Position numbers and translations under genes: made by a program. Below, piece after piece: positions 1-48,204 of a DNA stretch of 60,000 bases (positions are counted from its first letter, which is position 1; each line of letters starts with the position of its first letter). Origin of the DNA: Tubulanus polymorphus (lineage: Eukaryota > Nemertea > Palaeonemertea > Tubulaniformes > Tubulanidae). The stretch is from positions 5,655,600 through 5,715,599 of the forward strand of contig NC_134036.1 of NCBI RefSeq assembly GCF_964204645.1. Direction: 5' to 3'. The notes beneath the pieces were generated by a model that made no database searches, had not been told where the DNA came from, and saw nothing but the letters and a program-made list of their open reading frames with translations.

Positions 1-3000
1 GGAACTAACAGTTTTATCAGAGAACTGCGAGCGAGCTGGATTTTATATATTTGATGGTGGTAATTTCAAAGCTAGACGATACGGTCCGTACTGTCCTCGT
101 TTGAAGACATACGACCGTAACGTCGTCAGTCTGATTACATCAGGTGGATCGGTTACTGTAGTAGGATACGCTTATAACTGGGACGGTCAGTTAACAGTCG
201 ATAAGAAATCATATCTCAGATTTCGTCCTACCGACTGTGACGGGTATGTTTTAAAGGAAGGAGAACGTCGGATCCATAAGAGGTCACGCTGTCTCGTGAT
301 TACACCCGAAAACCGACGCCTTCCTATAAGGAACATCAATATATTATCAGATCAAGAATATCGAATTGATCGATGCTATCCTGGTCGGTTGCGATCGTGT
401 CCGTGGAAATTAAGACTCATTAGTAAATCACTCACTGAAAACATCGTGTTAACCACGGTGATCATGGGATTCAGTAGTTTCAGAGTTGTCCCACTTATCA
501 TAAAACTACGTCATAAATGTTTTGGATTGAACAACCCTGTTGACAAATTTTTGTATTCTGAATTCAGCAAAAATAATGTAAATTCATTTGATGATACATG
601 CGGACTGATTGAGTCACCTAACTTTCCAGCAAGGGCAGGATACTCATCGGTGTCTTTATACTATAATTTTAATAACATAATTAAACGGGTACAAAAATTT
701 CAATATTATAGATTTATCATCAAATCTGTAGAATCGATCAGTTGCACCGCAGATGACAAAACGGAAAAAAGCCCGATACTTTTCATTCAAGAGATATTTC
801 TGCAAAAAATTGGAACGTCCAGTCATCGTCTGAAAATTTGTGGAAATATGGCAACGAAAGGACTCGCATTTCATAGTTTAACGCATAATCATATATATTT
901 TGAAATAAGTAATAAAATTGCTAGATTTCAAATACAATACATTTTACGCCAGACGTTAGCGATCGAATATTCCAATGGTGATCGCTGTCAACGAGGATTT
1001 TTTGATTCGGGAATTTCGTGCGTGAAATACATCAAAGATGAACGTCTGAATTGGGAGAATGCTGAATTGTATTGTAGACAGAAGTACGCGGGACATCTAC
1101 TCAGTATCAACTCCGAACAGGAAATGATTTCTATTAAAACATTATTCGCTACAGAACTTCTGCGACAGGCATATTCAAAGCAATTACTCATAATGATGAT
1201 TGGATTAAAACAGCAGGCAAGTTTATGACTGTTTCTGTTCAAATCTACCTGATTTGTTCTACAAATATGTGCTTCTTTTTATGATTTCCAGCCTACAAAA
1301 GATGATTATTCATGGACTGATGGGAAACCATTGAGCTACACAGAGTGGTATAAACCTACAAATAACGACACGATACCAGAAGTTATTCGAGGATTGATAT
1401 CTCCTCTCAGAAAACAACCGATTAATGACGTCAATATGCCGTGTACAGCGCTGATACTGAATAATCCACGAGGATCAGCGAACTGGGTTCGATTCCCCTG
1501 CGAAATCGAACACGTTCACACGAGCTTCATTTGTGAACTACCAATAATCGGTATCAATGATGTGAATCATGTAGAAAATACAACAGTTGAAACATCGTAT
1601 CCAACAATTAATGCCACAATTACTATACGAAGAAATATGTTTCATGACGCACATATCAATGATTCGAAATGCACGATTGGTTGGGTAAGCATAGATGAAC
1701 ACTGCTTTCAAATACTGACTGCCTGGAACAAACATCGAGGTTTAGACAGAATAACCGGCAAAGAGATGTGTCATAACATACATGGTGAAATAGGTAAAAT
1801 GAAAACCAGCCACAGAGGAAACGAAACAATGAACTTGATAAACACATTTCACTATCAGCATCAGTATAGTCCTATATTAGCAATGGATTCTTATGACAAC
1901 CCCCTATTAATAACCCCAATAATCACAAGAGATGAAATTACTTATATTCAATCAGTTAAATGGACGATGAAACAGTTTGATAATAATGCGACAGATACAG
2001 CGCGTTCTGTTTTGTGTTCATACAATGTTACTGATGAAGAGTTAGCTTCTATAAGCGGTTGTAAATCGTGGCAGTTTAAATGTAACGATCAAAGATGTAT
2101 CAGTGACCATCGCGTATGTGATACCAGACACGACTGTCAACACGGTGAAGATGAACTCAATTGTACGGATATCAATTTACACAGTCAGTTTCAATGCAAT
2201 GATGGTCAAATTATATCAATAAGTGGTTTCTGTGATTTCATACAGGATTGTGTGGATGGTTCTGATGAGAACTCATGTTTTCATCCTGCGTGTTTGTCCG
2301 ATAAATTTCGCTGCCGAAGTGGTCATTGTGTCGGTAGGTCTTACAGATGTGATGGAGTCACTAACTGTAAAGACGGTTCCGATGAAAAAGGATGCACTGC
2401 TAAATTGTGCCAGGGGTTCCTGTGTAACAGTGGCGACTGTATCAGTTCTCAGTTGTATCAGGATGGTGTCGTGGATTGTAGTGGAAGCCTGGAAGAAGAT
2501 GAATTAGTAACAACTACTAATGTTACAGTGAATCCTACTGTTTATTGCAACAATGAGATCCACTGTACGACTAACTTCACTAATTTCTGCATTGAATCTG
2601 ACGAACAAAGATGTTCTTTCAATTCTCCTCATTGTTATTCAAGACGTCACAGATGTATTCTAGAAAGAATGAAAAATGGATTCCCAGTTTGTAGAAATCT
2701 CGAGCACGTATTAAGATGTGAAAAATTTGAATGTCCAGCTGGTACTGTAAAATGTCCTGCATCGTACTGTATACCGATCAGACAAGTGTGCGACGGTCAA
2801 TCAGATTGTCCGAATTCAGAAGATGAACAAAACTGCGAGACATTTTCATGTCCAGGAATGTTTAAATGTGGTCAGGAAAATCGGTGTATTCCACAATCTG
2901 AAGTTTGTGATGGTTTCGTAAATTGCAAATATACAACTGATGACGAGGCTTTCTGTAACGTCACGTGTTCTAGAGGTTGTAAGTGTCAAGGCTTTTTGAT

Positions 3001-4570
3001 CGACTGTGGAAATACTGGTTTAACAAATATTAGTGGTCTGTTCTTGCCTTCAATTCGAGTTTTAACTCTACCAAATAACCAAATACATTTCAACAAATCG
3101 ACATTTTATTTACTTAACTATCTGTACGTTCTCAACATCTCCTTCAATGAATTGTCTCATATTTTCCCAAATTCGTTCTCAAACCTACATAATCTACACG
3201 CACTGGACCTGACACACAACAACATAACATCATTATCCACAAATACATTCACTGGTCTTTACAGTTTGAAAGAGTTATTGATAACTGAAAATCCAATACG
3301 TCATTTAGAGGACGATACATTCCAAGATTTGAAATCACTTAAAGTTCTTGATCTTCATGGACTTTTCTTACTTGGGCTTGGCAAAAATGGATTTCAGGGT
3401 TTATCTAAATTACGGCTACTGAACGTCAGCAGTAACAGAATTCATCATGTTTCCAGATATGCCTTTTCAGGATTGAATGAACTTAGAATTCTCGATATAA
3501 CCAATAACTCTGTATTCATTTCCACAGAGCGAGACGTTTTCAAAAATCTGACATCTTTAGTTTTCCTAGCGTCCGATGCTTACAAATTTTGCTGCATGGC
3601 TCCGAATGTTGACACGTGCCTTCCTGAAGCTGATCAATTTTCCTCCTGTGCTGATCTGATGGGTAACACAGTCCTCAGAGCTATCATCTGGGTAATCGCT
3701 GCGTTCAGTTTCTTTCTGAACAGTTGCGTCATTTTAATTCGTATTCGTTCTAATCGACTTTCATCCTCCGAAAATCGGAACACATCTTCTGACATCCTCA
3801 TTATCAATATCGCTGCTTGTGATTTTCTCATGTCGATATATTTGTTTTTGATCGCGGGAGCAGATTACTTTTTTAAAGGAGTTTATTTCCTGAATTCTGA
3901 AACTTGGTCGGACAGTTCATTATGTAGTTTCGCTGGGGTTATGGTGACTATTTCTTGTGAAGGCTCATTGACGTTTCTGTTCATTCTAACACGCCATAGA
4001 TTTTCAAATATTGTGGATCCATTTTCTGGAAGCCCGATTACATCTCCAAGATATGTGTCCATCATTTGTTGTATTTGTTGGTTATCAATAGGTACGATTT
4101 CTATCATACCACTTTCAAAATCATCTTATTTTGGGAACAAATTCTACGGTACTACTGGGGTTTGTTTACCAATAAATTTCATTTCAATCGATGTCAACGC
4201 CTGGCAATATTCATTCGCTATTTTTGCTGTGTTTAACTCTGGCATACTGACAACCATAATGGTGACTTATATGCAAATGTACAGAATCGTATCTGGAAGC
4301 AGATCTGGTTCGGGTAGAATCGATCCTACCGAACTGGTCTTAGCGCGCAGGAGTTTGGTGATAAATCTGTGTAATTTATTTTGCTGGCTGCCGTTAATTA
4401 TCGTTCAGTTTTGCGCGGCATTACGGGTAGAAATACCGAATCAGGTGGCGGCTTGGCTGGCGGTTCTTTTCTTACCGATCAACTCGTCCCTCAATCCCCT
4501 TCTTTACACAATACTGACTATCGATATGAAATCCGTACGAGCAAAAATTAAACGCGGACACAAGAAATAG
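1..4570 (+). CDS. Receptor copy A (5' partial): CUB / C-type lectin / LDLa / LRR / 7TM, GRL101-like
   Basis: Partial gene; exon 1 and the start of exon 2 lie before the window. Visible exons are 1-1216 (exon 2, frame starting at base 2) and 1292-4570 (exon 3, stop TAG). The intron 1217-1291 begins GCAAGT and ends TTTCCAG, so it is a GC-AG intron. Exon 2 shows CUB-like modules (a CGLIESPNFPA-type start, paired cysteines) and the first half of a C-type lectin domain. Exon 3 completes the lectin domain (WTDGKPLSYTEW, then WVRFPCE). It then encodes a degenerate second lectin-like domain, six LDLa repeats (CDG..NC..GSDE..C pattern), an LRR N-cap, about seven LRRs and a hinge (FCCMAPN) resembling that of RXFP/LGR receptors. 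A rhodopsin-type 7TM with CWLP and NPLLY follows. TM3 ends in HRF rather than D/E-R-Y. Copy A carries an extra Asn codon near 1984 (FDNNATD) compared with copy C. Expected at the plasma membrane; ligand unknown. Confidence 0.9.
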
Positions 4571-5168
4571 AATACTTACATAAACAACTATCTGCGCTTC
4601 ATTTTGTTATTCAAATGACAATGAAGGTGTATTAAACTGAATCACATTGAATGATTTCCTCCGCCTCCAGTGTAGAATTGTTTAAAGATACTATTCGACT
4701 GTTCTGGATGCGAGTTTTTTTCCACTCAGCCCTTGAGTTTGCCTTTGCAGAGTTTCTAGCAAAGGACTTGTCCATGCATTGGCAATGCGCGTCGAATATT
4801 ATATCTAAAACTGTTTGACGTGATTGAATTGACATGGAGATAACAAGAAAATTAATTTTTAATAAATTTTCTAACGCCTGCGAAAAAAATGTAGAATTTT
4901 TGGGATAGGCTAACGTGGGATTGCAAATTTGAAATCGAAGTTCTAAGACATTTGGGGAATGACGAGATTTAGCGACAGGGTAGCAGGTCGACCGCCACTA
5001 GATCCTCTTGAGTCAGGGTTGAAGTACACATTGTCATTTGAAATAGCAAGGGCTTGTTTATGTTATGCTGTATGAATTACGCATATTTTTAGTATGTTGT
5101 GTTTCCTTATTTCAATTGTAACTTTATTGCATTTGGGAATCTTATATGTAATGTTCAACATAAGGATC

Positions 5169-5174
5169 AATAAA
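5169..5174 (+). terminator. Polyadenylation signal, copy A
   Basis: AATAAA in the context GGATCAATAAAGAATTG, about 600 nt after the stop and at the same relative place in copies A-E. The 3' UTR is conserved among copies and contains the small hairpin GCATTGGCAATGC near 4,777. Confidence 0.65.
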
Positions 5175-5179
5175 GAATT

Positions 5180-7373: not shown

Positions 7374-10300
7374 ATGTTGTTCGGTATGGAGCAGCGACTG
7401 AGAGCGCTGTTTATAGCGTCGCTGATCGTCTGTCAAGTTCGCATCGCGCGCGCTCATCGCGCAGACTCTATCGAGGAATGGTCTGTGACGGTAAATTCGT
7501 CTTGTAACAGTACGTGGTACCCGCTAGATTCTACGTCCGGTTACATCGTTTCACCGAATTACCCTTCGTTAACGCGCGGTGTTGAATGTCGTTGGATCGT
7601 CAACGGCTCTTTGCCGGGAACTTTTCACATCCAAGTTTACCACGAGATCGAGCTGTCAATATTCTGTGGTGATAACTACCTTCTCGTCCACGAGTCTGAT
7701 ATCAGGTTGTGCGGTGATGGAAAACATGAATTTCGCCGTAACGATTCGATCCCGTTGATGTTTAGAAGTAACGTCGACGGTGCGCGAGGTAGTCGGATTT
7801 ATATCATATATCGTTATGAACGAAGTCAATGTCGAATCACTCACAACTGTAGATACAACCCCGATTTAAAAAGACTACACTCCTCAACTGGTTATAAATT
7901 TTACATGGCCATTAATAATCGTTGCAAAGTGTTTGTGGAATGGATCGGAATATTACACGATTATGGGATGAATCTCACATTTAGTCAGATCATGTTCGAA
8001 TACAATCGAAGACCTCAATCAGCGACCATTGAAATCCTCGACAGATGGAGCAACAGCAGTAAGCCTATAGCTCTTATACGAGAACAAGCGGGTCATCCGC
8101 CTTCATCGTTTTATACTAAAACAAATTATGCAATCATCTTTCCGACACTAAAATACATTCCACTTAAATGTAAGCTTTTAGTACAGTTGTACAAAATATC
8201 AGATTGGAATGTCTCTAATCCGTTGATTCAGATCTCTAATAACGAGTCGGGAGTGCTCATTCCCGATGATAACAGTTTACACGTAATAACTCGATCGAAA
8301 CACTTACACTGCTGGTCTATCACAGTGCAGGTGTTACAGTACGTCGTCTTCAACTGGACACGTGACCTCGTCACATCCGGAGACGTCATCGGAGTATATA
8401 AACAAGAAGGCTTACGCGTTGTGGGAACTGATATTTTACGCGGTTACAACTACCTGGAATCACTGAGTGTTAAATCTGACGGCTTTCTCGTCATTCTGTG
8501 CGTGTTGGTGAACAGAGAACTTACGAGGTCACGAATAGAAATGAACTTTAAAGTGGGATCACTATCGATAAAAGATGTACACGTCACTTATCATTGGAAA
8601 TCGGTGAGTATAAATTCAAATGGTCGTTTGTTGGAATGAATGTTACTTGTAAATTCTAAATCTAAATATCAACTGACATCATAGATTTTATATTTACAGA
8701 TTCCAAATTTAAAATCCCGCGAGATCTTCCCGTCATCGAAGAAAACGATACCAACGTATCGCATAAATACAATAGTATTTAAAAGGAAAGTTGATATTTC
8801 TGAAGAAAATATGGAACTGACTGTTTTATCAGAGAACTGCGAGCGAGCTGGATTTTATATATTTGATGGTGGCAATTTCAAAGCTAGACGATACGGTCCG
8901 TATTGTCCTCGTTTAAAGACATACGACCGTAACGTCGTCAGTCTGATTACATCAAGTGGATCGGTTACTGTAGTAGGATACGCTTATAACTGGGATGATC
9001 AGTTAACAGTCGGTGAGAGATCATATCTCAGATTTCGTCCTACCGACTGTGACGGGGAACTTTTAAAGGAGGGAGAACGTCAGATCAATATGACGTCACA
9101 CTGTCTCGTGATTACACCCGAAAACCGACGGCTTCGCTTGAAAGTAATGTACATATTATCAGAACATGAATATCGAATTGACCGATGCTATGCTGATCAG
9201 TCGCGATCGTGTCCGTGGGGATTCAGAATAGTCAGTAAATATATCACTGACAGCATCGTGTTCACCACAGTATTCATGGGCAGTGGACGTTTGTTCCGGA
9301 CGTCTCCACTAATGGTTAAACTACGTCATAAATGTCTGGGATCGAAAAAACCTGTCGATTCATTTTTTGATTTTCAGATGGGCAAAGACCGGGCAAATTC
9401 AATTGACGATGCATGCGGACTGGTTGAATCACCGGACTACCCGGCAAGGGCACAACGTATATACTATCAACCTTCATTCTACAAATTTACAAACGTTATT
9501 GAGCGCGAACAAAAATTTTATCATTACAGATTTATAATAAAATCTATAGAATCGATCAGTTGCGAAGCAAGTCTGCTTAAAGATAACAGCCCGATACTTT
9601 TCATTCAAGAGATTGATTTTCCGGTGATAGTTATTCATCGTATCACAATATGCGGAAATATGGCAACGAATGAACTCGTATTTTATAGTTTATCTGAAAA
9701 ACATTTTTATTTTGAAATAAAATACAAAATTTCAAATACAATACGTCTTACGCCAGTCGTCAGCGATCGAGTATTCCGATGGCGTGCAATGTGATACCGG
9801 ATTTCTAGATTCGAGATTTTCATGCGTAAAATACATCAGAGATGAACGTCTGAATTGGGAGAATGCTGAATTGTACTGTAGACAGAAGTACGCGGGACAT
9901 CTACTCAGTATCAACTCAGAACAGGAAATGATTTCTATCAAAGCATTATTCGCAACAGAACTTTTACGACAGGCGTATTCACAGAAAGCGCTCATAATGA
10001 TGATTGGGTTAAAACTGCAGGTAAATAAATACAATGTATAAATGTAAATACACTTATATAACTACCGTAAATTTTTGGTTTTTTGTAATTTTGTATAAAT
10101 ATATTCATATTTTCAATCATTTCAAGCCTACAACTAGCCATTACACGTGGACTGACGGGAAACCATTGAGTTACGCAGAGTGGTATAAACCTACAAATAA
10201 CGACACGATACCAGAAGTTATTCAAGGATTGATATTTTCTATTAGAAGACAACCGATAAATGACGGGAATATGCCGTGTACGGCGATGATACTGAATAAT

Positions 10301-13300
10301 CCACGCGGATCAGCGAACTGGGTTCGATTCCCGTGTGAAGTGGTTGAAGTTCATACGGGCTTCATGTGTGAATCGAACAGAGACGATATCGATGATTTGC
10401 AGAATTCAATTGAAAATAAAACAGTTAAAACATCAGATTCATTAAACAAAGACACATATTTTATACGAAGAAATATATTGCAAGATGCGGCTTTCTACAA
10501 CTCGAGCTGTACGATTGGTTGGGTAAGCATAGATAAACAGTGCTATCAGATACTGACAGATTGGAACAAACATCGAGGTTTAGATATAAAAGCTGCAACA
10601 GAGATGTGTCATAGCATCCGTAGTGAAAAAGGCGAAATAACCGGTTACACAGAAAATGAAACAATGAACCTAATAAGAACATTTCACTATGAACATCAAT
10701 ATGGCTCTATACTGACAGTGACTAATGTCAGACTGCTCGTTATAAACCCAATAATCACTAGAGATGAAATAACTTATATTCAATCAGTTAAATGGACGAT
10801 GAAACAGTTTGATAATGCGACAGATACAGCGCATTCTGTTTTGTGTTCATACAATGTAACTGATGAAGAGTTAGCTTCTATAAGCGGTTGTAAATCGTGG
10901 CAGTTTAAATGTAACGATCAAAGATGTATCAGCGATCATCGCGTATGTGATACGAGACACGACTGTCAACACGGTGAAGATGAACTCAATTGTACGGATA
11001 TCAATTTACACAGCCAGTTTAAATGCAATGATGGTCAGATTATATCAATTAGTGGTTTCTGTGATTTCATACAGGATTGTGTGGATGGATCTGATGAGAA
11101 ATCTTGCATTCATCCCACGTGTTTGTCCGCACAATTTCGCTGTATCAGCGGGCAGTGCGTCAGTAGGACTGACAGATGTGACGGATTGACTAACTGTAAA
11201 GACGGTTCTGATGAAATGGGATGCACCACCCAACTGTGTCAGGGGTTCCTGTGTATCAATGGGGACTGTATCAGTTCTCAGTTATATCAGGATGGTGTCG
11301 TGGATTGTAGTGGAAGCCTCGAAGAAGATGAATTAGTAACAAATACTAATGTTACAGTGAATCCTACGGTTCATTGCAATGATGAAAACCACTGCACAAC
11401 TAACTTCACAAATCTCTGTACGAAATCTGATGAACAAAGATGTTCTTTTAATTCTCCTCATTGTTATTCAAGACGTCACAGATGTATTCTAGAAAGAATG
11501 TCAAATGGTTTCCCAGTTTGTAGAAATCTTGAGCACGTATTGAGATGTGAAGAATTTGAATGTCCAGCTGGTACTGTAAAATGTCCTGCATCGTACTGTA
11601 TACCGATCAGACAGGTGTGCGACGGTCAATCAGATTGTCCTAATTCGGAGGATGAACAAAATTGCGATACAATATTATGTCCCGGGATGTTTAAATGTGG
11701 TCAGGAAAATCGGTGCATTCCACAATCTGACGTTTGTGACGGTTTCAAAAATTGTAAACATACAACTGATGACGAGGCTTTCTGTAACATCACGTGTCCT
11801 ATAGGCTGTGAGTGCCAAGGTCATTTGGTCAATTGTGAAAATATTGGCTTCACAAATATTACTGGTCTTTTCTCGGCATCAACTCGAGTTTTGCTTTTGT
11901 CGAGCAACCAAATTCTTTTTAACAAGTCGACATTCCATTTACTCAACTATGTCTACGTTCTCAACATCTCCTCCAATGAATTGTTTCATATTTTACCCGA
12001 GTCGTTCTCATCCCTGCATAATTTACATACATTAGACCTTAGAAATAACAACATCCCACTCTTGTACACGGATACTTTTATCGGTTTGTATAGTTTGAAA
12101 GAGTTATTCATAACTGAAAATCCAATACGTCATTTAGCGGACGATGCATTCCAAGGATTGAACTCGCTGAATGTTCTTAATCTTCATGGATTTTCCTTAT
12201 TTTTGCTTGGTAGAAATGTATTTCGAGGTTTATCTACATTACAGTCATTGAATATCAGTAACAACGGAATCAATCATATTTCACGATATGCTTTTTCGGG
12301 ATTAAGAGAACTTAAAGTTCTCGATATGACCAAAAACTCTAAATTCATTTTCAAAGAAAGAGGCGTTTTCGACAATATGACATCATTAGTTTTCTTAGCG
12401 TCTGATGCCTACACATTTTGCTGCATGGCTCCGAATGTTGACCAATGCCTTCCCGAAGCTGATCAATTTTCCTCCTGTTCTGATCTAATGGGTAACACAG
12501 TCCTCAGAGCTATCATTTGGGTGATCGCTCCGTTCAGTTTCTTCGCAAACGGTATTGTCATTTTATTTCGTCTTCGATCAATTCGACTTTCATCCTCCGA
12601 AAAACGCAACACATCTTCTGACATCATAATTATCAATATCGCAGCTTGTGATTTTCTGATGTCGATTTATTTGTTTTTGATCGCTGGAGCTGATTACGTT
12701 TTGAAAGGAGTTTATTACCTAAATTCTGAAACTTGGACGGACAGTTCATCGTGTCGTCTGGCTGGAGTTACGGTCACTATTTCCTGTGAAGGCTCATTGA
12801 CATTTCTCTTTATTCTAACGCGTCATAGGTTCTCAAATATCGTTAATCCATTTTCTGGAAGCCCGATTACATCTCCGAGATATGTATCCATTATTTGCTG
12901 TATATGCTGGTTATCTGTTGGTACTATTTCTATAATACCACTGTCAACATTATCTTATTTCGGGAACAACTTTTACGGTACTACTGGAGTTTGTTTACCT
13001 ATGAATTTGATTTCAATCGATGTTAAAGCCTGGCAATATTCATTCGCTATTTTCGCCATGTTTAACTCAGGGATTCTTGCCGCGATAATGGCGACTTATG
13101 CGCAAATGTACAGACTCGTTTCCGGAAGCAGGTCTGGTTCGGGTAGAGTTGATCCTACCGAACTAATTTTGGCACGTCGGAGTTTGGTGATAAATCTGTG
13201 CAATCTATTTTGCTGGCTGCCGTTAATCACCGTTCAGTTTTGCGCGGTATTACGGATAGAAATACCGAATCAGGTGGCGGCTTGGCTGGCGGTTCTTTTC

Positions 13301-13405
13301 TTACCGATCAACTCGTCCCTCAATCCCCTTCTATATACAATACTGACTATCGATATGAAATCTGTACGAGCAAAAACTAAACGCGGAAATAGAATACTTA
13401 CATAA
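7374..13405 (+). pseudogene. Receptor copy B, frameshifted in exon 2
   Basis: Same three-exon gene as copy D. Exons are 7374-8603, 8700-10020 and 10127-13405, with GT-AG introns of 96 and 106 nt. Relative to D and E, an 8-nt direct-repeat deletion near 9730 (AAAATTCCAAAATTTC reduced to AAAATTTC) shifts the frame. Translation then stops at 9792-9794. The predicted product is about 774 residues: signal peptide plus CUB modules, without lectin, LDLa, LRR or 7TM. Exon 3 remains open over 3.28 kb, so the loss is recent, or is polymorphic or an assembly error. A second deletion of 7 nt near 13,387 changes the C-terminus from RGHKK to RGNRILT. The start is the ATG after GCAGTG; the same ATG is kept in every copy, whereas the second in-frame Met is lost in copy E. 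The truncated ectodomain, if made, would be secreted. Confidence 0.8.
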
Positions 13406-14008
13406 ACAACTATCTGCGCTTCATTTTGTTATTCAAATGACAATGAAGGTGTATTAAACTGAATCACATTGAATGATTTCCTCCGCCTCCAGTGTAGAAT
13501 TGTTTAAAGATACTATTCGACTGTTCTAGATGCGAGTTTTTTTCCACTCAGCCCTTGAGTTTGCCTTTGCAGAGTTTCTAGCAAAGGACTTGTCCATGCA
13601 TTGGCAATGCGCGTCGAATATTATATCTAAAACTGTCTGACGTGATTGAATTGACATGGGGATAACAAGAAAATTAATTTTTGATAAATTTTTTAACGCC
13701 TGCGAAAAAAATGTAGAATTTTTGGGATAGGCTAACGTGGGATTGCAAATTTGAAATCGAAGTTCTAAGACATTTGGGGAATGATGAGATTTGGCGGCAG
13801 GGAAGCAGGTCGACCGGGCTAAATCCCGGGGCTGCCACTAGATCCTCTTGAGTAAGGGTTGAAGTACACATTGTCATTTGAAATAGCAAGGGCTTGTTTA
13901 TGTTATGCTGTATGAAATACGCATATTTTTAGTATGTTGTGTTTCCTTATTTCAATTGTAACTTTATTGCATTTGGGAATCTTATATGTAATGTTCAACA
14001 TAAGGATC

Positions 14009-14014: not shown

Positions 14015-14019
14015 GAATT

Positions 14020-22200: not shown

Positions 22201-22236
22201 GTACGAGCAAAAACTAAACGCGGATACAAGAAATAG
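16231..22236 (+). CDS. Receptor copy C, complete: CUB / C-type lectin / LDLa / LRR / 7TM
   Basis: Exons 16231-17460, 17557-18885 and 18961-22236 join in phase 0 to give about 1944 residues. Intron 1 is GT-AG (96 nt, GTGAGT). Intron 2 is GC-AG (75 nt, GCAAGT...TTTCCAG). The signal peptide is about residues 1-27 (ALFVASLIVCQVRIARA). CUB-like modules follow, then a C-type lectin domain split by intron 2, a second degenerate lectin-like domain, six LDLa repeats, LRRs, hinge and 7TM. From exon 2 onward it is almost identical to copy A, while exon 1 resembles copies B and D. Near the stop it carries the copy B version of the sequence (CTATATACAATACTG, then KTKRG), so it is a mosaic. TM4 reads IMCCICW instead of IICCICW. 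The likely role is a cell-surface receptor signalling through a heterotrimeric G protein; this is inferred from the family, not shown here. Confidence 0.9.
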
Positions 22237-30300: not shown

Positions 30301-30409
30301 GGTTCTTTTCTTACCGATCAACTCGTCCCTCAATCCCCTTCTTTATACAATACTGACAATCGATATGAAATCCGTACGAGCAAAAATTAAACGCGGACAC
30401 AAGAAATAG
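24376..30409 (+). CDS. Receptor copy D, complete: reference copy for domain positions
   Basis: Exons 24376-25605, 25702-27030 and 27137-30409 give 1943 residues; both introns are GT-AG (96 and 106 nt). Approximate layout: signal peptide 1-27; CUB 44-150; further CUB-like modules to about 775, one of them split by intron 1; C-type lectin 777-935; degenerate lectin-like 981-1108. LDLa repeats lie at 1108-1142, 1151-1180, 1185-1219, 1224-1250, 1332-1366 and 1371-1406, with a separate Cys-rich stretch at 1270-1327. The LRR N-cap is 1410-1423, LRRs 1440-1605, hinge 1617-1637 and seven TM segments 1643-1925. HRF is at 1753-1755, CWLP at 1882-1885 and NPLLY at 1919-1923. The tail is only about 18 residues. 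The lectin domain lacks an EPN/QPD motif, so calcium-dependent sugar binding is doubtful. LDLa 3 and 5 keep the acidic calcium-binding residues. The layout extends that of Lymnaea GRL101 by CUB and lectin modules. Confidence 0.92.
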
Positions 30410-31012: not shown

Positions 31013-31014
31013 GA

Positions 31015-34211: not shown

Positions 34212-37200
34212 ATGTTGTTCGGTATAGAGCAGCGACTGAGAGCGCTGTTTATAGCGTCGCTGATCGTCTGTCAAGTTCGCATCGCGCGCGCTGATCGCGC
34301 AGACTCTATCGAGGAATGGTCTGTGACGGTAAATTCGTCTTGTAACAGTACGTGGTACCCGCTAGATTCTACGTCCGGTTACATCGTTTCACCGAATTAC
34401 CCTTCGTTAACGCGCGGTGTTGAATGTCGTTGGATCGTCAACGGCTCTTTGCCGGGAACTTTTCACATCCAAGTTTACCACGAGATCGAGCTGTCAATAT
34501 TCTGTGGTGATAACTACCTTCTCGTCCACGAGTCTGATATCAGGTTGTGCGGTGATGGAAAACATGAATTTCGCCGTAACGATTCGATCCCGTTGATGTT
34601 TAGAAGTAACGTCGACGGTGCGCGAGGTAGTCGGATTTATATCATATATCGTTATGAACGAAGTCAATGTCGAATCACTCACAACTGTAGATACAACCCC
34701 GATTTAAAAAGACTACACTCCTCAACTGGTTATAAATTTTACATGGCCATTAATAATCGTTGCAAAGTGTTTGTGGAATGGATCGGAATATTACACGATT
34801 ATGGGATGAATCTCACATTTAGTCAGATCATGTTCGAATACAATCGAAGACCTCAATCAGCGACCATTGAAATCCTCGACAGATGGAGCAACAGCAGTAA
34901 GCCTATAGCTCTTATACGAGAACAAGCGGGTCATCCGCCTTCATCGTTTTATACTAAAACAAATAATGCAATCATCTTTCCGACACTAAAATACATTCCA
35001 CTTAAATGTAAGCTTTTAGTACAGTTGTACAAAATATCAGATTGGAATGTCTCTAATCCGTTGATTCAGATCTCTAATAACGAGTCGGGAGTGCTCATTC
35101 CCGATGATAACAGTTTACACGTAATAACTCGATCGAAACACTTACACTGCTGGTCTATCACAGTGCAGGTGTTACAGTACGTCGTCTTCAACTGGTCACG
35201 AATAGAAATGAACTTTAAAGTGGGATCACTATCGATAAAAGATGTACACGTCACTTATCATTGGAAATCGGTGAGTATAAATTCAAATGGTCGTTTGTTG
35301 GAATGAATGTTACTTGTAAATTCTAAATCTAAATATCAACTGACATCATAGATTTTATATTTACAGATTCCAAATTTAAAATCCCGCGAGATCTTCCCGT
35401 CATCGAAGAAAACGATACCAACGTATCGCATAAATATAATAGTATTTAAAAGGAAAGTTGATATTTCTGAAGAAAATATGGAACTGACTGTTTTATCAGA
35501 GAACTGCGAGCGAGCTGGATTTTATATATTTGATGGTGGCAATTTCAAAGCTAGACGATACGGTCCGTATTGTCCTCGTTTAAAGACATACGACCGTAAC
35601 GTCGTCAGTCTGATTACATCAGGTGGATCGGTTACTGTAGTAGGATACGCTTATAACTGGGACGGTCAGTTAACAGTCGGTAAGAAATCATATCTCAGAT
35701 TTCGTCCTACCGACTGTGACGGGGAACTTTTAAAGGAGGGAGAACGTCAGATCAATATGACGTCACACTGTCTCGTGATTACACCCGAAAACCGACGGCT
35801 TCGCTTGAAAGTAATGTACATATTATCAGAACATGAATATCGAATTGACCGATGCTATGCTGATCAGTCGCGATCGTGTCCGTGGGGATTCAGAATAGTC
35901 AGTAAATATATCACTGACAGCATCGTGTTCACCACAGTATTCATGGGCAGTGGACGTTTGTTCCGGACGTCTCCACTAATGGTTAAACTACGTCATAAAT
36001 GTCTCGGATCGAAAAAACCTGTCGATTCATTTTTTGATTTTCAGATGGGCAAAGACCGGGCAAATTCAATTGACGATGCATGCGGACTGGTTGAATCACC
36101 GGACTACCCGGCAAGGGCACAACGTATATACTATCAACCTTCATTCTACAAATTTACAAACGTTATTGAGCGCGAACAAAAATTTTATCATTACAGATTT
36201 ATAATCAAATCTATAGAATCGATCAGTTGCGAAGCAAGTCTGCTTAAAGATAACAGCCCGATACTTTTCATTCAAGAGATTGATTTTCCGGTGATAGTTA
36301 TTCATCGTATCACAATATGCGGAAATATGGCAACGAATGAACTCGTATTTTATAGTTTATCTGAAAAACATTTTTATTTTGAAATAAAATACAAAATTCC
36401 AAAATTTCAAATACAATACGTCTTACGCCAGTCGTCAGCGATCGAGTATTCCGATGGCGTGCAATGTGATACCGGATTTCTAGATTCGAGATTTTCATGC
36501 GTAAAATACATCAGAGATGAACGTCTGAATTGGGAGAATGCTGAATTGTACTGTAGACAGAAGTACGCGGGACATCTACTCAGTATCAACTCAGAACAGG
36601 AAATGATTTCTGTCAAAGCATTATTCGCAACAGAACTTTTACGACAGGCGTATTCACAGAAAGCGCTCATAATGATGATTGGGTTAAAACTGCAGGTAAA
36701 TAAATACAATGTATAAATGTAAATACACTTATATAACTACCGTAAATTTTTGGTTTTTTGTAATTTTGTATAAATATATTCATATTTTCAATCATTTCAA
36801 GCCTACAACTAGCCATTACACGTGGACTGACGGGAAACCATTGAGTTACGCAGAGTGGTATAAACCTACAAATAACGACACGATACCAGAAGTTATTCAA
36901 GGATTGATATCTTCTATTAGAAGACAACCGATAAATGACGGGAATATGCCGTGTACGGCGATGATACTGAATAATCCTCGTGGATCAGCGAACTGGGTTC
37001 GATTCCCGTGTGAAGTGGTTGAAGTTCATACGGGCTTCATGTGTGAATCGAACAGAGACGATATCGATGATTTGCAGAATTCAATTGAAAATAAAACAGT
37101 TAAAACATCAGATTCATTAAACAAAGACACATATTTTATACGAAGAAATATATTGCAAGATGCGGCTTTCTACAACTCGAGCTGTACGATTGGTTGGGTA

Positions 37201-40074
37201 AGCATAGATAAACAGTGCTATCAGATACTGACAGATTGGAACAAACATCGAGGTTTAGATATAAAAGCTGCAACAGAGATGTGTCATAGCATCCGTAGTG
37301 AAAAAGGCGAAATAACCGGTTACACAGAAAATGAAACAATGAACCTAATAAGAACATTTCACTATGAACATCAATATGGCTCTATACTGACAGTGACTAA
37401 TGTCAGACTGCTCGTTATAAACCCAATAATCACTAGAGATGAAATAACTTATATTCAATCAGTTAAATGGACGATGAAACAGTTTGATAATGCGACAGAT
37501 ACAGCGCATTCTGTTTTGTGTTCATACAATGTAACTGATGAAGAGTTAGCTTCTATAAGCGGTTGTAAATCGTGGCAGTTTAAATGTAACGATCAAAGAT
37601 GTATCAGCGACCATCGCGTATGTGATACCAGACACGACTGTCAACACGGTGAAGATGAACTCAATTGTACGGATATCAATTTACACAGCCAGTTTAAATG
37701 CAATGATGGTCAGATTATATCAATTAGTGGTTTCTGTGATTTCATACAGGATTGTGTGGATGGATCTGATGAGAAATCTTGCATTCATCCCACGTGTTTG
37801 TCCGCACAATTTCGCTGTATCAGCGGGCAGTGCGTCAGTAGGACTGACAGATGTGACGGATTGACTAACTGTAAAGACGGTTCTGATGAAATGGGATGCA
37901 CCACCCAACTGTGTCAGGGGTTCCTGTGTATCAATGGGGACTGTATCAGTTCTCAGTTATATCAGGATGGTGTCGTGGATTGTAGTGGAAGCCTCGAAGA
38001 AGATGAATTAGTAACAAATACTAATGTTACAGTGAATCCTACGGTTCATTGCAATGATGAAAACCACTGCACAACTAACTTCACAAATCTCTGTACGAAA
38101 TCTTATGAACAAAGATGTTCTTTTAATTCTCCTAATTGTTATTCAAGACGTCACAGATGTATTCTAGAAAGAATGTCAAATGGTTTCCCAGTTTGTAGAA
38201 ATCTTGAGCACGTATTGAGATGTGAAGAATTTGAATGTCCAGCTGGTACTGTAAAATGTCCTGCATCGTACTGTATACCGATCAGACAGGTGTGCGACGG
38301 TCAATCAGATTGTCCTAATTCGGAGGATGAACAAAATTGCGATACAATATTATGTCCCGGGATGTTTAAATGTGGTCAGGAAAATCGGTGCATTCCACAA
38401 TCTGACGTTTGTGACGGTTTCAAAAATTGTAAACATACAACTGATGACGAGGCTTTCTGTAACATCACGTGTCCTATAGGCTGTGGGTGCCAAGGTCATT
38501 TGGTCAATTGTGAAAATATTGGCTTCACAAATATTACTGGTCTTTTCTCGGCATCAACTCGAGTTTTGCTTTTGTCGAGCAACCAAATTCTTTTTAACAA
38601 GTCGACATTCCATTTACTCAACTATGTCTACGTTCTCAACATCTCCTCCAATGAATTGTTTCATATTTTACCCGAGTCGTTCTCATCCCTGCATAATTTA
38701 CATACATTAGACCTTAGAAATAACAACATCCCACTCTTGTACACGGATACTTTTATCGGTTTGTATAGTTTGAAAGAGTTATTCATAACTGAAAATCCAA
38801 TACGTCATTTAGCGGACGATGCATTCCAAGGATTGAACTCGCTGAATGTTCTTAATCTTCATGGATTTTCCTTATTTTTGCTTGGTAAAAATGTATTTCG
38901 AGGTTTATCTACATTACAGTCATTGAATATCAGCAACAACGGAATCAATCATATTTCACGATATGCTTTTTCGGGATTAAGAGAACTTAAAGTTCTCGAT
39001 ATGACCAAAAACTCTAAATTCATTTTCAAAGAAAGAGGCGTTTTCGACAATATGACATCATTAGTCTTCTTAGCGTCTGATGCCTACACATTTTGCTGCA
39101 TGGCTCCGAATGTTGACCAATGCCTTCCCGAAGCTGATCAATTTTCCTCCTGTTCTGATCTGATGGGTAACACAGTCCTCAGAGCTATCATTTGGGTGAT
39201 CGCTGCGTTCAGTTTCTTCGCAAACAGTATTGTCATTTTATTTCGTCTTCGATCAATTCGACTTTCATCCTCCGAAAAACGCAACACATCCTCTGACATC
39301 ATAATTATCAATATCGCAGCTTGTGATTTTCTGATGTCGATTTATTTGTTTTTGATCGCTGGAGCTGATTACGTTTTTACAGGAGTTTATTACCTAAATT
39401 CTGAAACTTGGACGGACAGTTCATTGTGTCGTCTGGCTGGAGTTACGGTCACTTTTTCCTGTGAAGGCTCATTGACATTTCTCTTTATTCTAACGCGTCA
39501 TAGGTTCTCAAATATCGTTAATCCATTTTCTGGAAGCCCGATTACATCTCCGAGATATGTATCCATTATTTGCTGTATATGCTGGTTATCTGTTGGTACT
39601 ATTTCTATAATACCACTGTCAACATTATCTTATTTCGGGAACAACTTTTACGGTACTACTGGAGTTTGTTTACCTATGAATTTGATTTCAATCGATGTTA
39701 AAGCCTGGCAATATTCATTCGCTATTTTCGCCATGTTTAACTCAGGGATTCTTGCTGCGATAATGGCGACTTATGCGCAAATGTACAGACTCGTTTCCGG
39801 AAGCAGGTCTGGTTCGGGTAGAGTTGATCCTACCGAACTAATTTTGGCACGTCGGAGTTTGGTGATAAATCTTTGCAATCTATTTTGCTGGCTGCCGTTG
39901 ATCATCGTTCAGTTTTGCGCGGTATTACGGGTAGAAATACCGAATCAGGTGGCGGCTTGGCTGGCGGTTCTTTTCTTACCGATCAACTCGTCCCTCAATC
40001 CCCTTCTTTACACAATACTGACCATTGATATGAAATCCGTACGAGCACAAATTAAACGCGGACACAAGAAATAG
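34212..40074 (+). CDS. Receptor copy E, complete but with an internal deletion in exon 1
   Basis: Exons 34212-35270, 35367-36695 and 36802-40074 give about 1886 residues with GT-AG introns. Compared with copies B, C and D, 171 nt (57 codons) are missing after the codons for FNW near 35195. The deletion lies between two GG dinucleotides and keeps the frame. It removes a segment beginning TRDLVTSGDVIG, part of the CUB-like module that spans intron 1. The remaining exons match D almost base for base. Codon 5 is ATA (Ile) instead of ATG, which supports the upstream ATG as the true start of this family. TM2-TM3 differs slightly (ADYVFTGVYY, VTFSCEGS). The gene is open and could be expressed, but the module may not fold normally. 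Confidence 0.88.
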
Positions 40075-42217: not shown

Positions 42218-45200
42218 ATGTTGTTCGGTATGGAGCAGCGACTGAGAGCGCTGTTTATAGCGTCGCTGATCGTCTGTCAAGTTCGCATCGCGCGCGCTGA
42301 TGGCGCAGACTCTATCGAGGGATCGTCTGTGACGGTAAGTTCGTCTTGTAACAACACGTGGTACCCGCTAGATTCTACGTCCGGTTACATCGTTTCACCG
42401 AATTACCCGTCGTTAACGCGCGGTGTTGAATGTCGTTGGTTCGTCAACGGCTCTTTACCGGGAACTTTTCGCGTCCAAGTTCACTACGATATTGAGTTAT
42501 CAATATTCTGTAGTGATAACTACTTTCTCATCCGCGATTCTGATAACAGATTCTGTGGCGATGGAAAACATGAAATCCGCCGTAACAGCTCGATCTCGTT
42601 GATGTTTAGGAGTAACGTCGACGGTGCGCGAGGTAGTCGGGTTTATGTCACATATCGTTATGAACTTAGCCGATTGAGAATCACTCACAACTGCGGTAAA
42701 AAAAAATTGATGCTAATCAAACTACACACTTCGACTGGTTATAAATTCTTCACTAGAGCAGAACCTGATTGTCAGATGTTCATCAAATGGGTCGGAATTT
42801 CGCGTGGTTATGCGTTGAATCTCACATTTATTCAGATGATTTTTAAATCAAGACGCAATCCCCCAAAACCTATTCAAATCAATGAAGGTTGGAACAGAAA
42901 CAATGAACCGATAGCTGTTATACGAGAACAATCCGGACATCCAGCTTTATCGTTTTATACCAAAACAAACAAAGCCGTCATCTCTTTGCTAAATCCGTTA
43001 TTTACACTTCAATTCATGCTTTTAGTCCAGACGTACAAAATATCAGATTGGAACGTCTCTAATCCGTTGATTCAGATCTCTAATAACGAGTCGGGAGTGC
43101 TCATTCCCGATGACAACAGTTTACACGTAATAACTCGATCAAAACACTTACACTGCTGGTCTATCACAGTGCAGGTGTTACAGTACGTCGTCTTCAACTG
43201 GACACGTGATCTCGCCATATCCGGTGACGTCATTGGTATATATAAACAAGAAGGGTTACGCGTTGTAGGAACTGATATTCTACTCGGTTACAACTACCTG
43301 GAATCGCTGAGTGTCAAATCTGAAGGTTTTCTTGTCATACTGTGCGTCTTAATAAACAGGGAACTAACAGAATCACCGATAGATATGCACTTCAATGTGA
43401 GATCACTATCTGCAAAAGATGTATACGTCGCTTATCATTGGAATCTGGTGAGTAGGAAGTCAAATCGTTTTTTCAAATCCATCAGTAATAATCCTGAATT
43501 ATAATTTGACATGTAGACAATATATTTACAGGAAAAATTTCAACACTCCTGGATCGTATCTCCGGGATTGATTTTCCCACCATCGAAGACAGGGATATTC
43601 AGGTACAGTGTGAATACAATAATATTCGAACAGAAAGTTGATATTTATGAAGATAATATGGAACTAACAGTTTTATCAGAGAACTGCGAGCGAGCTGGAT
43701 TTTACATATTTGACGGTGGTAATTTCACGGCTAGACGATACGGTCCGTACTGTCCTCGCATGAAGACCCCATACGACCGTAACGTCGTCGGTCTGATTGC
43801 ATCAGGTGGATCGGTTACTGTTGTAGGATACGCTTATAACTGGAATCGCAAGTCAGTATTCAATGGTGGACTTTTAAGGTTTCGCCCTACGGACTGTGAC
43901 GGGTATGTTTTAAAGGAAGGAGAACGTCAGATCAATGTGACGTCTCACTGTCTGGTGATTACACCCGAAAACCGACGCCTTCCTTCGAGAAACGTTTATA
44001 TATTATCAGAACACGAATATCGAATTGACCGATGTTTTTTCGATGCGCCAACAACTTGCTTCAAAAAGTTGAAAATGAGCACTAAAGTTCTCAGTCAGGG
44101 CGTCGTGTTAAACACGGTATTTGTAATTAAAGGGAAGCCGTTTCGCACGTCACCGCTTATTGTAAGACTGCGTCATAAATGTCTAGCATCGAAAAGACCT
44201 GTCGAAACATTACAACCAAAAAGGGGCAAAGATCGTAATCTATCAGTAGATGAATGCGGATTGGTTCAATCACCCAACTACCCAGCATGGACAGAAAAAA
44301 CCAAAGTCACTTTATACTATACATTTAAAAACATGCGGAGACCAGGAAAGGAATTCGAATATTACAGATTCATCATCAAATTCATTGAATATGTTAGTTG
44401 CACAAAAAGCCTAGCTCATCAAAAAGATTCAGTAATTTTTATTCAACGAATGCTTTCCACAGGCATTTTGATTCGACGCGAAATATGCGGAAATATGGCA
44501 ACGATAGGACTTGTATTTCATAGTGTACACAATAATGATATGTATTTTGAAATAAAAAATTATGTTGCTATATTTCGAATTCAATACATTTTACGCCAGT
44601 CGTTCTCGATGGAGTATTCCAAGGGTGCTCACTGTCATCGAGGATTTCTATATTCGGGTATTTCATGCGTAATATACATCAGAGATCAACGTCTGAATTG
44701 GGAGAATGCTGAATTGTATTGTAGACAGAAGTACGCGGGACATCTACTCAGTATCAACTCAGAACAGGAGATGATTTCAATAAAAACATTATTCGCTACT
44801 AAACTTCGTAAACAAGCATATTCACAGAAGGAGCACATAACAATTATTGGGTTGAAATTGCAGGCAAGTTCATAACACTATTTTCAAGTTTCCAAAATTG
44901 ATATGGCATATTTTTCTTTTTCAATTTGTTTTATTTCCAGATCACAACAGGTCATTATATGTGGACAGATGGGAAACCATTGAGCTACACAGAGTGGTAT
45001 AAACCTACAAACAACGACACGATACCAGAAGTTATTCAAGGATTGATATCTCCTCTCAGAAAACAACCGATAAATGACGTCAATATGCCGTGTACGGCGA
45101 TGATACTGAATAATCCACGAGGATCAGCGAACTGGGTTCGATTCCCCTGCGAAATCGAAGAGGCTCACACGAGTTTCATGTGTGAAACTGAAAGAATCGA

Positions 45201-48200
45201 CATCGTGCATTGGCAGAATGCGATTGGAAATACATCAGTCGAAACATCCAATATAACAAACAACGAATCAGTTTTGCTTCACCAAAACGCATTTCAAAAG
45301 TTTGTTTCTAGCGAATCGAACTGTACGATTGGTTGGATAAGCATAGATAAACAATGCTATCAAATACTGACAGACTGGAACAACTATCGAGGTTTAGATA
45401 TAAAAACAGCGACAGAGATGTGTCGTAGCATCCGTGGGGAAATAACAAGAAGCAATTATACAAAAAATCAAATAATGAACCTATTAAATATATTTCACTA
45501 TCAACATCAATATAGCTCTATACTGACGTTGACATCCGATGACAAACTGCAAGTAATAAACCCAATTATCACTAGAGATGAAATTACTGATATTCAATCA
45601 GTTAAATGGATGATGAAACAGTTTGATAATGCAACCGATACAGCGCATTCTGTTTTGTGTTCGTACAATGTAACTGATGAAGAGATAGCTTCTATAAGCG
45701 GTTGTAAATCGTGGCAGTTTAAATGTGACGATCAAAGATGCATCAGTGACCATCGCGTATGTGATACCACACACGACTGTCAGCACGGTGAAGATGAACT
45801 CAACTGTACGGATATCAATTTACACAGTCAGTTTCAATGCAATGATGGTCAGGCCATATCAATAAGTGGTTTCTGTGATTTCATACGGGATTGTGTGGAT
45901 GGTTCAGATGAGAACTCGTGTTTTCATCCCCCGTGTTTGTCCGAACAATTTCGCTGCCAAAGTGGTCAATGTATCAGTAGCGCTAACAGATGTAATGGAG
46001 TCACTAATTGTGAAGACGGCTCTGATGAAGTGGGATGTACTGCTCAATTGTGTCAAGGGTTCCAGTGTAACAGTGGAGACTGTATCAGTTCTCAGTTGTA
46101 TCAGGATGGTGTCGTGGATTGTAGTGGAAGCCTCGAAGAAGATGAATCAGCAACAACTGCTAATATTAACCCTATTGAACTTTGCAATAAGGAGAACCAC
46201 TGTACTAGTAACTTCACAAACCTCTGCACGGTACCGGATGAACAGAGATGTTCTTTCAATTCTCCTCATTGTTATTCAAGACGTCACAGATGTATTCTAG
46301 AAAGAAAGAAAAGTGGTTTCCCAGTCTGTAGAAATCTTGAGCACGTATTGAGATGTGAAGAATTTGAATGTCCAGCTGGTACTGTAAAATGCCCAGCATC
46401 GTACTGTATACCGATCAGACAGGTGTGCGATGGTCAATCAGATTGCCCAAATTCAGAGGATGAACAAAGCTGCGAAAAATTGTCATGCCCAGGAATGTTT
46501 AAATGTGGTCTGGAGAGTAGATGTATTCCACAATCTAGGGTTTGTGACGGTGTCGTTAATTGTAAACATACAACTGATGACGAGGTTTTTTGTGACGTCA
46601 AGTGTCCCAGGCGTTGTAAATGTCAAGGTAGTTTGGTCGATTGTGGAAAAACGGGTGCAAAAAATATAACCGGTCTTTTCTCGACATCAACTCGAGTTTT
46701 GATTTTGCCGAATAACCAAATTCATGTCCATACATCAACATTTCGTTCACTAAATTATCTCTACGTTCTCAACATCTCCTCCAATAGATTGTCTTATATT
46801 TTACCGAAGTCCTTTTCAAACCTGCATAATTTATGTATATTAGACCTTACACATAACAACATTACATCCTTATCGACAAATACATTCTCCGGTTTGTATA
46901 GTTTGAAACAGTTATTCATAACTGAAAATCCAATACGTCATTTCGAAGACGATACCTTTCAAGATTTGAAATCACTAAAAGTTCTCGATCTTCACGGGCT
47001 TCTCTTATTGGTGCTAGGTAGAAATATATTTCGAGGTTTATCTACATTGCGGTTGTTGAATATCAGCAGTAACAGGATGCGTCATATTTCACGTTATGCT
47101 TTTTCGGGATTGAGAGAGCTTAGAATTCTTGATATAACCAAAAACTCCAAAATGATTTCGACAGAAAGAGACGTTTTCGAAAATCTGACATCTTTAGTCT
47201 TCTTAGCGTCTGATGCTTACAAATTTTGCTGCATTGCTCCGAATGTTGACCGATGCCTTCCCGAAGCTGATCAATTTTCCTCCTGTTTTGATCTGATGGG
47301 TAACACAGTCCTCAGAGCTATCATCTGGGTCATCGCTTCATTCAGTAGTTTTGTGAACGGTGGCGTCATCTTATTTCGTCTTCGATCTATTCGACTTACA
47401 TCCTCCAAAAACCGAAACACATCCGCTGATATCATCATTATCAATATCGCAGCTTGTGATTTCCTTATGTCAATTTATTTGTTTTTGATCGCAGTAGCAG
47501 ATTACGTTTATAAAGGAGTTTATTTCCTGAATTCTGAAACTTGGACGGAAAGTTCTTTGTGTAGTTTCGCTGGGGTTTTGGTGACTATTTCAAGCGAAGG
47601 CTCATTGACGTTTCTTTGTATCCTAACCCGTTATAGATTTTCAAATATAGTTGATCCATTTTCTGAAAGCCGGATTACATCTCCGATGCATGTGGCGGTT
47701 TTTTGCTGCTCATGTTGGTTAACTGTAGGTATGTTTTCTATAATACCGCTGTCACGGTTATCTTATTTCGGTAATAATTTCTACGGTTCCACTGGTGTTT
47801 GTTTACCTATGAATTTAATTTCTATTGATGTCAACGCCTGGCAATATTCTTTCGCTATTTTTGCCCTCCTCAACTCTGGCATACTAGCTACGATAATGGC
47901 AACTTACGTGCAAATATACAAACTCGTATCAGGAAGCAGGACGGGTTCGGGCAGAATCGACCCTACCGAACTGGTTTTAGCGCGCAGGAGTTTGGTGATA
48001 AATCTTTGTAATCTATTTTGCTGGTTGCCGTTAATTATCGTTCAGTTTTGCGCGGTATTACGGGTAGAAATACCGAATCAGGTGGCGGCTTGGCTGGCGG
48101 TTCTTTTCCTTCCGATCAACTCGTCCCTCAATCCCCTTCTTTACACAATACTGACTATCGATATGAAATCCATACGAGCAAAAACTAAACGCAGACAACA

Positions 48201-48204
48201 ATAA
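42218..48204 (+). CDS. Receptor copy F, complete, diverged paralogue
   Basis: Exons 42218-43447, 43532-44863 and 44941-48204 give about 1941 residues. Intron 1 is GT-AG (84 nt) and intron 2 is GC-AG (77 nt, GCAAGT...TTTCCAG). Domain order is the same as copy D. F differs most in the second CUB-like module (about 42,640-43,040), in the exon 2 CUB modules and in TM3-TM5. It is nearly identical to the others in the block starting DWNVSNPLIQISNNESG, in the LDLa 4 to LDLa 5 stretch and in TM6-TM7. TM3 ends YRF rather than HRF or D/E-R-Y. The tail ends KTKRRQQ. An AATAAA lies about 300 nt after the stop. F is the last member of the uninterrupted array. Confidence 0.92.

Follow-up and report, generated by a model that had tools for sequence, protein, structure and literature searches.

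A tandem array of predicted GRL101-type receptors with a CUB and lectin-fold head in the nemertean Tubulanus polymorphus

A stretch of 60,000 nucleotides from the palaeonemertean Tubulanus polymorphus (RefSeq assembly GCF_964204645.1, contig NC_134036.1, positions 5,655,600 to 5,715,599 of the forward strand; hereafter the window) holds a head-to-tail array of genes, labelled A to G, predicted to encode GRL101-type receptors. These are type C leucine-rich repeat-containing G-protein-coupled receptors (LGRs), here made as a single chain and lengthened by a head of CUB and lectin folds. The domains come in the order signal-like peptide, clear CUB, weak or unassigned modules, C-type lectin domain, degenerate lectin-like module, six LDLa repeats, leucine-rich repeats (LRR), type-C hinge and class-A seven-transmembrane domain (7TM). 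We favour, with some confidence, a receptor whose adhesive head captures a surface ligand and which signals through a G protein. If this is true, the presence of surface recognition and G-protein signalling in one chain would make an unusual innate-recognition sensor.

A single receptor chain

Gene D (24376..30409 of the window, + strand as all features below; exons 24376-25605, 25702-27030 and 27137-30409) is intact and codes for 1943 residues; unless stated otherwise, residue numbers are those of its product. The fusion of head and receptor is best seen in the C-type lectin domain (residues 777-935; 26800..27382), placed by a Lectin_C match on the cut-out. Intron 2 (27031-27136 in D) interrupts this domain, and exon 3 therefore begins within a domain. 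In Pfam scans the exon-2 half scored 20.4 bits, short of the cut-off of 22.6, no match was obtained for the exon-3 half, and the joined domain reached 34.5 bits. Against a profile made from six relatives, with no row from the window, the halves were complementary, scoring 30.4 bits at profile positions 1-73 and 45.4 bits at positions 80-146, and 75.5 bits once joined. Five relatives' models (P0002, P0007, P0008, P0016, P0032) start shortly before the W.DG-type lectin place where exon 3 begins, which suggests that an exon boundary within the lectin domain may be conserved among relatives.

The reading frame tells the same story. Intron 2 measures 75 bp in A and C, 77 bp in F and 106 bp in B, D and E, lengths that are not equal modulo 3; its donor is GC in A, C and F (1217-1291, 18886-18960, 44864-44940) and GT in B, D and E. 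The splice models are nevertheless in frame in all four complete, unbroken copies, and since a single frame is recovered only after splicing out introns of unequal length, it is very unlikely that exons 1-2 and exon 3 are separate genes. Three observations support the joining of exons 1 and 2: canonical splice sites, open frames in the four complete copies and, by eye, no signal peptide in exon 2. To the extent that sequence can tell, receptor and fusion are real, and the single chain proposed by the first-pass annotation of this DNA is supported: the split lectin and the intron lengths, which require splicing, contradict the two-gene arrangement that it had named as its refutation.

The receptor core and its family

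The receptor half is the best recognized part of the protein. In gene D, Pfam places six LDLa repeats with a cysteine-rich insert at residues 1108-1406 (27899..28795; two of the repeats have fewer cysteines, by eye), leucine-rich repeats at about residues 1410-1610 (28805..29407; LRR_8, with outer limits set by eye) and a class-A 7TM (7tm_1) at residues 1676-1923 (29603..30346). D and F each show six LDLa stretches at E 5, and exon 3 of E four at E 0.001; the 7tm_1 matches in whole-protein scans have E-values of 2.8e-18 and 6e-19, and LRR_8 is also strong. The segment between LRR and 7TM, FCC...C.P..D.FSSC.DLM, aligns with that of GRL101-like relatives and is a cysteine-rich hinge of type C. 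Pfam scans of D and F, taken to E 5, gave no GPS/GAIN or 7tm_2 domain, so that these proteins do not qualify as adhesion G-protein-coupled receptors (GPCRs).

Residues 260-1090 of the exon 3 product of gene E were used to collect homologues: of 4805 candidates, 247 proteins matched at E 1e-10, and 120 of these were listed. Closest among the matches listed is another Tubulanus polymorphus protein, LOC141911221 (P0001), 56.7-57.9% identical (gaps counted) to A, C, D, E and F over a long match to a model that is a 689-residue fragment. Together with the GRL101-like protein of the brachiopod Lingula anatina (P0010), it stands nearest to the window copies both by sequence (about 57% for Tubulanus) and by tree. 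The latter, a quick LG+G4 reconstruction on LRR, hinge and 7TM with 58 rows (54 relatives plus window copies A, C, D and F, with B, E and G left out), groups the window with Tubulanus (support 100) and then with Lingula (82), many deeper forks being unresolved. Among solved structures compared with exon 3, no LGR scores better than relaxin receptor 1 (7.9e-72, against 9.7e-30 for LHCGR), a score that spans LRR and 7TM together; LRP2 chains score higher through their LDLa repeats. Domains, relaxin receptor 1 match and tree agree on a GRL101/type C core, and the six LDLa repeats, LRRs and 7TM of the first reading are borne out by Pfam.

Class-A GPCRs carry the motifs D/E-R-Y, CWxP and NPxxY. The window copies retain the R of DRY, CWLP and NPLLY, the first motif reading HRF in A, C, D and E and YRF in F, with Q in the Tubulanus relative. 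The Asp that precedes CWxP in many relatives is Asn here (NLFCWLP), as it is in Tubulanus; these two changes may alter basal activity.

The adhesive head

The head is more difficult to read. Its first module, CUB1 (about residues 41-150; 24496..24825), follows a start that looks by eye like a signal peptide. On a cut-out it scored 20.2 bits against Pfam CUB, slightly below the cut-off of 21.4, and a profile of five copies matched cubilin at 1.1e-8. Twenty-nine domains from the collected proteins were then built into a CUB profile, which was run on six modules of C, D and F and on 30 shuffles of each, a lenient control of which 23-30 shuffles per module were reported. CUB1 stands well apart, with 22.3, 19.2 and 24.2 bits in C, D and F against shuffle maxima of 3.5, 5.6 and 5.3. 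Module 2 (residues 156-278) gave 13.6, 12.2 and 4.5 against 2.4, 4.4 and 8.4, that of F not rising above its shuffles, and the module preceding the lectin (646-768) gave 8.4, 5.0 and 5.6 against 3.2, 2.3 and 4.3. Modules 3, 4 and 5 were at shuffle level in this test, save module 4 of C (2.6 against 1.3). Of the multiple CUB-like modules announced at first, CUB1 is clear, module 2 lies above shuffles in C and D, the module before the lectin lies slightly above them in all three copies, and the other three, with the exception just mentioned, do not stand out.

In comparisons of profiles, exon 1 matched the relatives' CUBs at 55.2% (E 1.2e-4) over residues 54-135, that is CUB1. A CUB in the last module before the lectin was considered and rejected (14.7%, E 0.0018, 14 columns), as was one in exon 2 (3.5%); in view of these weak comparisons no CUB is claimed in exon 2. 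When the whole head was compared with those of four relatives, only the lectin domain aligned (99.2%), and we therefore make no claim that the heads are homologous as wholes. None of 1987 candidates matched at E 1e-3 in a protein search with residues 1-1090 of D, and a search with a mixed alignment returned 11 proteins, none from the family, when the 7988 candidates sharing most words were scored.

The lectin domain is clear. Lectin_C matched the cut-outs of D, C and F at 3.8e-8, 1.5e-7 and 1.4e-7 (34.5, 32.6 and 32.6 bits; cut-off 22.6), and in D the cysteines at 777, 788, 806, 904, 923 and 934 form the long-form pattern of the C-type lectin fold. It is followed by a second, degenerate lectin-like module (residues 981-1093; 27518..27856), whose limits are set by its cysteines. 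Compared with the same module of six relatives, it matched at 90.2% (1.5e-6) over 38 columns; five of these six relatives' modules were scanned as cut-outs, and two showed sub-threshold Lectin_C. In the window, Pfam found no lectin on cut-outs of this module, and a lectin profile scored it at E 0.27 in D and 0.27-0.46 across D, E and F, leaving it unreported in A and C. The two lectins described earlier differ in standing: the clear one is matched by Pfam, the degenerate one rests on its likeness to the relatives' module and not on the lectin profiles. The Pfam check that had been proposed has a divided outcome, LDLa, LRR and 7tm_1 being strong on whole proteins, while CUB, just below cut-off, and Lectin_C were matched on exon or domain cut-outs and neither was reported in whole-protein scans of D and F.

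Spread of the architecture

How far does this head extend? From the 120 proteins listed we picked by hand 55 that carry LDLa and 7tm_1 and surveyed them at E 1e-3; isoforms and truncated models are among them, so that counts are not independent and absence is unreliable, and the second-round lectin profile contained window rows. A whole or partial lectin domain was found in at least 26 of the 55 among the matches listed, some calls being weak or partial (P0026, 5.2e-4; P0055, 1.3e-4), and neither lectin nor CUB in 29. The named lectin-bearing relatives are one nemertean, one brachiopod and several molluscs. CUB was found in at least four of the 55 (among the matches listed), all four with lectin: P0012 from Haliotis, P0018 from Mytilus, P0033 from Littorina, and P0017. 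A fifth protein, P0035 from Mytilus coruscus, has both domains, with its 7TM cut off, and lies outside the 55. Whole-protein Pfam scans of five relatives (P0010, P0012, P0017, P0018, P0035) reported CUB in P0012, P0017, P0018 and P0035 and Lectin_C in P0010 and P0035, with LDLa and LRR downstream in all five and 7TM in four.

By its sequence, then, the CUB-lectin-LDLa-LRR-7TM architecture is not unique to the window. The models from Haliotis cracherodii (P0012), Mytilus edulis (P0018), M. coruscus (P0035) and Littorina saxatilis (P0033), as well as P0017, have CUB and then lectin, with LDLa, as the window copies do, and the order sought in other lophotrochozoans, down to LRR and 7TM, was found in the Haliotis, M. 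edulis, Littorina and P0017 models. P0017 and P0018 have the whole lectin domain, P0012 and P0033 part of it and P0035 two pieces of it. Their CUBs are stronger than those of the window, and F5/8C is added in P0018 and P0035. The P0035 model, GRL101-like with an incomplete 7TM, also carries an ApeC (apextrin C-terminal) domain beside F5/8C, CUB and lectin. The tail after NPxxY is 154-240 residues long in P0012, P0017, P0018, P0009 and P0014, whereas it has 19-20 residues in the window copies; the tails of P0012 and P0018 looked kinase-like by eye, and Pfam found nothing in them. The Lingula protein has two lectin-like modules before LDLa (the second by eye), with no CUB detected. A lectin head on this many relatives, and a CUB-lectin head on some, makes a comparative study of the receptor class possible: as the head extends beyond snails, a candidate class of parasite-resistance receptors could be compared and tested in more animals.

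The array and its copies

The longest open frames of the window reach 1126 codons on the + strand; in 20 mononucleotide shuffles the longest run without a stop measured 105-163 codons. With splice models built from conserved junctions, the array comprises seven units, all on the + strand and head-to-tail; C, D, E and F are complete and intact (1886-1944 residues), with three exons each, and uninterrupted spliced proteins come from these four and from the visible portion of A. Gene A (2..4570) has its 5' end outside the window: part of exon 2 (2-1216) and exon 3 (1292-4570), separated by a GC-AG intron 2 (1217-1291), give 1497 residues without internal stop. Gene B (7374..13405; exons 7374-8603, 8700-10020, 10127-13405) is broken by an 8-bp coding deletion in exon 2, between 9724 and 9725, and is likely to be a pseudogene, or else to reflect a sequence error; its C-terminal end is also changed. 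Gene C (16231..22236; exons 16231-17460, 17557-18885, 18961-22236; intron 2 GC-AG) codes for 1944 residues. Gene E (34212..40074; exons 34212-35270, 35367-36695, 36802-40074) has an intact frame of 1886 residues, with 171 bp missing in frame from exon 1 (corresponding to D 25358-25528). Gene F (42218..48204; exons 42218-43447, 43532-44863, 44941-48204; intron 2 GC-AG), of 1941 residues, is the most diverged of the complete copies. Gene G (59054..60000) shows the start of exon 1 (315 residues translated) and runs past the window end. The first-pass count of six genes and a partial seventh agrees with seven same-strand units, with the proviso that A is cut, B has its deletion and E lacks 171 bp; the end given there for the whole array, 48204, has to be moved, G starting about 10.8 kb downstream of F.

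Copies are often very close. Identity is 98.4% between A and C over 5.9 kb, 97.2% between B and D over 8.1 kb, 97.9% between B and E and 98.3% between E and D. Over the main gene matches F shares 80-83% identity with A, B, C and E, and 86.7% with E along a stretch that contains most of exon 1; G is about 83% identical to the other copies. Block A-B (1-14713) and block C-D (17670-31715) look like a recent two-gene duplication, or like two haplotypes in tandem. Between C and D, synonymous divergence (dS) rises from 0.049 in exon 1 to 0.41 in exon 3, with a sharp shift from about 0.04 to about 0.4 near residues 510-535 (about 17850-17930 in C), as expected from sequence exchange or unequal crossing-over.

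Rates of change were obtained as pairwise dN/dS (omega, NG86 method) for C, D and F, exon 2 of B being left out and A having no exon 1 in the window, a comparison of low power. Omega is 0.15-0.22 in the 7TM, 0.17-0.23 in LDLa, 0.26-0.36 in the lectin, 0.45-0.62 in residues 531-768 and, at low divergence, 0.58-0.87 in CUB1. A few 40-codon windows exceed 1, among them those starting at residues 510 (C-D), 908 (C-F), 928 (C-D) and 948 (D-F), the last three being parts of 908-987. The head evolves more loosely than the core, and no whole domain shows omega above 1.

The interval between F and G contains, in a region of higher GC, a dispersed repeat of about 200 bp in three copies (51835-52042, 52971-53175, 54807-55002; 79-85% identical) and a 65-bp tandem repeat array (54235-54737). 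Rfam and tRNA scans of the window gave no matches.

What might the receptors recognize?

In the working model that we favour, the ligand is a protein or glycoprotein displayed by another cell, a microbe, a parasite or a body surface, and CUB and lectin-fold modules would capture it. The stalk of LDLa, linker and LRR would then press activating elements onto the 7TM, as LDLa does in relaxin receptors, where activation requires the LDLa module (PMC3822782, PMC4837482), and the 7TM would signal through a G protein. Tandem duplication and sequence exchange would keep the signalling half alike, leaving parts of the head free to differ between copies. The sequence shows the structure of the genes, their one frame, the order of the domains, the family and the rates of change; ligand class, G-protein coupling and a role in non-self or surface recognition are what we infer here; recognition of non-self in particular is a more tentative proposal, put at somewhat less than even chances.

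Several observations weigh against this picture. The calcium-dependent sugar site of C-type lectins carries the motifs QPD or EPN and WND. These are missing from the window lectin, which has QPI and WVR instead; the Lingula lectin has QPV and WAK at the same sites, while QPD and WHD are found in P0012, P0013, P0017 and P0018. With the sugar-site residues missing, classical calcium-dependent sugar binding is unlikely, and such a lectin domain argues for protein or atypical ligands. Further CUB modules beyond CUB1 are weak or undetected by the CUB profile, and AlphaFold models of exon 1 (five rows) and exon 2 (three rows) had mean confidence (pLDDT) of 34.0 and 27.5, with all residues below 50, and are unusable. 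The acid of DRY is replaced by H or Y, so that G-protein coupling could be unusual. Finally, linker 938-975 (1.45, 0.74, 1.08) is the one module whose omega does not stay below 1 in all three pairs, and the lectin domain is among the more conserved modules. The suggestion that these receptors recognize glycans or microbes directly, as a defence family, has to be tempered accordingly: sugar motifs are missing, domains are constrained and the lectin head is no local invention, but a snail cluster offers a precedent (PMC12297450), with which a defence role remains a plausible and good hypothesis.

Other explanations have to be balanced against surface recognition. The copies may be ordinary duplicates of a receptor for an endogenous peptide of the insulin, insulin-like growth factor (IGF) or relaxin type, where LRR and LDLa bind the hormone and the head is a co-receptor or matrix anchor. 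The core does group with type C LGRs, IGF has been proposed as a GRL101 ligand (PMC8286064), and constraint is strongest on LDLa and 7TM; this explanation leaves aside, however, the lectin head of many relatives and the dense lectin-bearing cluster at the snail SudRes2 locus (PMC12297450), while no demonstrated GRL101 ligand came up in the available literature, and we hold it to be unlikely. Slightly less likely still is a chemosensory or reproductive family, recognizing the surface of prey, mate or gamete with no immune role. Tandem expansion fits sensory families as well, and in the crown-of-thorns starfish the sensory tentacles have more of a GRL101-like transcript than the tube feet do (PMC6267866), but this is expression in a distant phylum, of a receptor with six LDLa for which lectin and CUB are unmentioned in the available text of that paper.

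Two further alternatives concern the genes rather than their function. It is improbable that assembly inflated the copy number by placing two haplotypes, blocks A-B and C-D, in tandem. Identity between the blocks over 5.9 and 8.1 kb would fit, and so would intron 1, which does not differ between B, C, D and E; E, however, is a third copy, as near to D as B is, and F and G are clearly diverged, so that a true array of at least four would remain. A split of each unit into a secreted CUB-lectin protein (exons 1-2) and a separate GPCR (exon 3) is hardly credible. Both sides of intron 2 are needed to make a lectin domain, exon 3 starts in mid-domain, exons 2 and 3 share a frame in every copy once spliced and not before, and lectin is fused to a GPCR in gene models from Lingula, Mytilus and others.

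Comparison with known systems

The nearest precedent is SudRes2, a region of Biomphalaria sudanica associated with resistance to schistosomes, where a dense cluster of 12 GRL101-like genes includes ten with LRR, LDL and C-type lectin domains (PMC12297450, 2025). Outside SudRes2, six further genes have GRL101, lectin and LDL domains in their annotation, and according to the authors the lectin fold is unique to the Biomphalaria genes as compared with Lymnaea GRL101 (PMC12297450). As the validated and top variants sit in a neighbouring Zn-RING-IAP gene (PMC12297450), the SudRes2 receptors are linked to resistance and not proven causal. Like that cluster, the window has clustered genes with lectin, LDL, LRR and 7TM; unlike it, the window has CUB, a term absent from the available text of PMC12297450, animal and copy number differ, and association with resistance is reported for the snail alone. 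That CUB-lectin-LDLa-LRR-7TM receptors form an ancient spiralian recognition system, the array being homologous to the snail cluster with an inherited lectin exon boundary, is an attractive but doubtful idea.

In the open-licence literature searched, no description of a receptor with CUB, lectin, LDLa, LRR and 7TM was recognized. Its parts are found elsewhere in other combinations. Amphioxus has Adhesion GPCRs with lectin, CUB and LDLa domains (PMC2246102). In Nematostella and Trichoplax, type C LGRs are described that bear CUB as well as fibronectin II modules (PMC9545775, 2022): they share with the window an LDL module and N-terminal CUB domains and differ by their fibronectin type II modules, lectin being unmentioned in the available text (PMC9545775). 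As for GRL101 itself, which appears only as a tree label in the available part of PMC11521371, the type C2 naming is found in PMC4079206. Like Lymnaea stagnalis GRL101 and the type C2 LGRs, the window receptors combine an LDLa array, LRR, a type-C-like hinge and a class-A 7TM; GRL101 has twelve LDLa against six here, and CUB and lectin are not among the parts named for it in the available text of PMC8286064.

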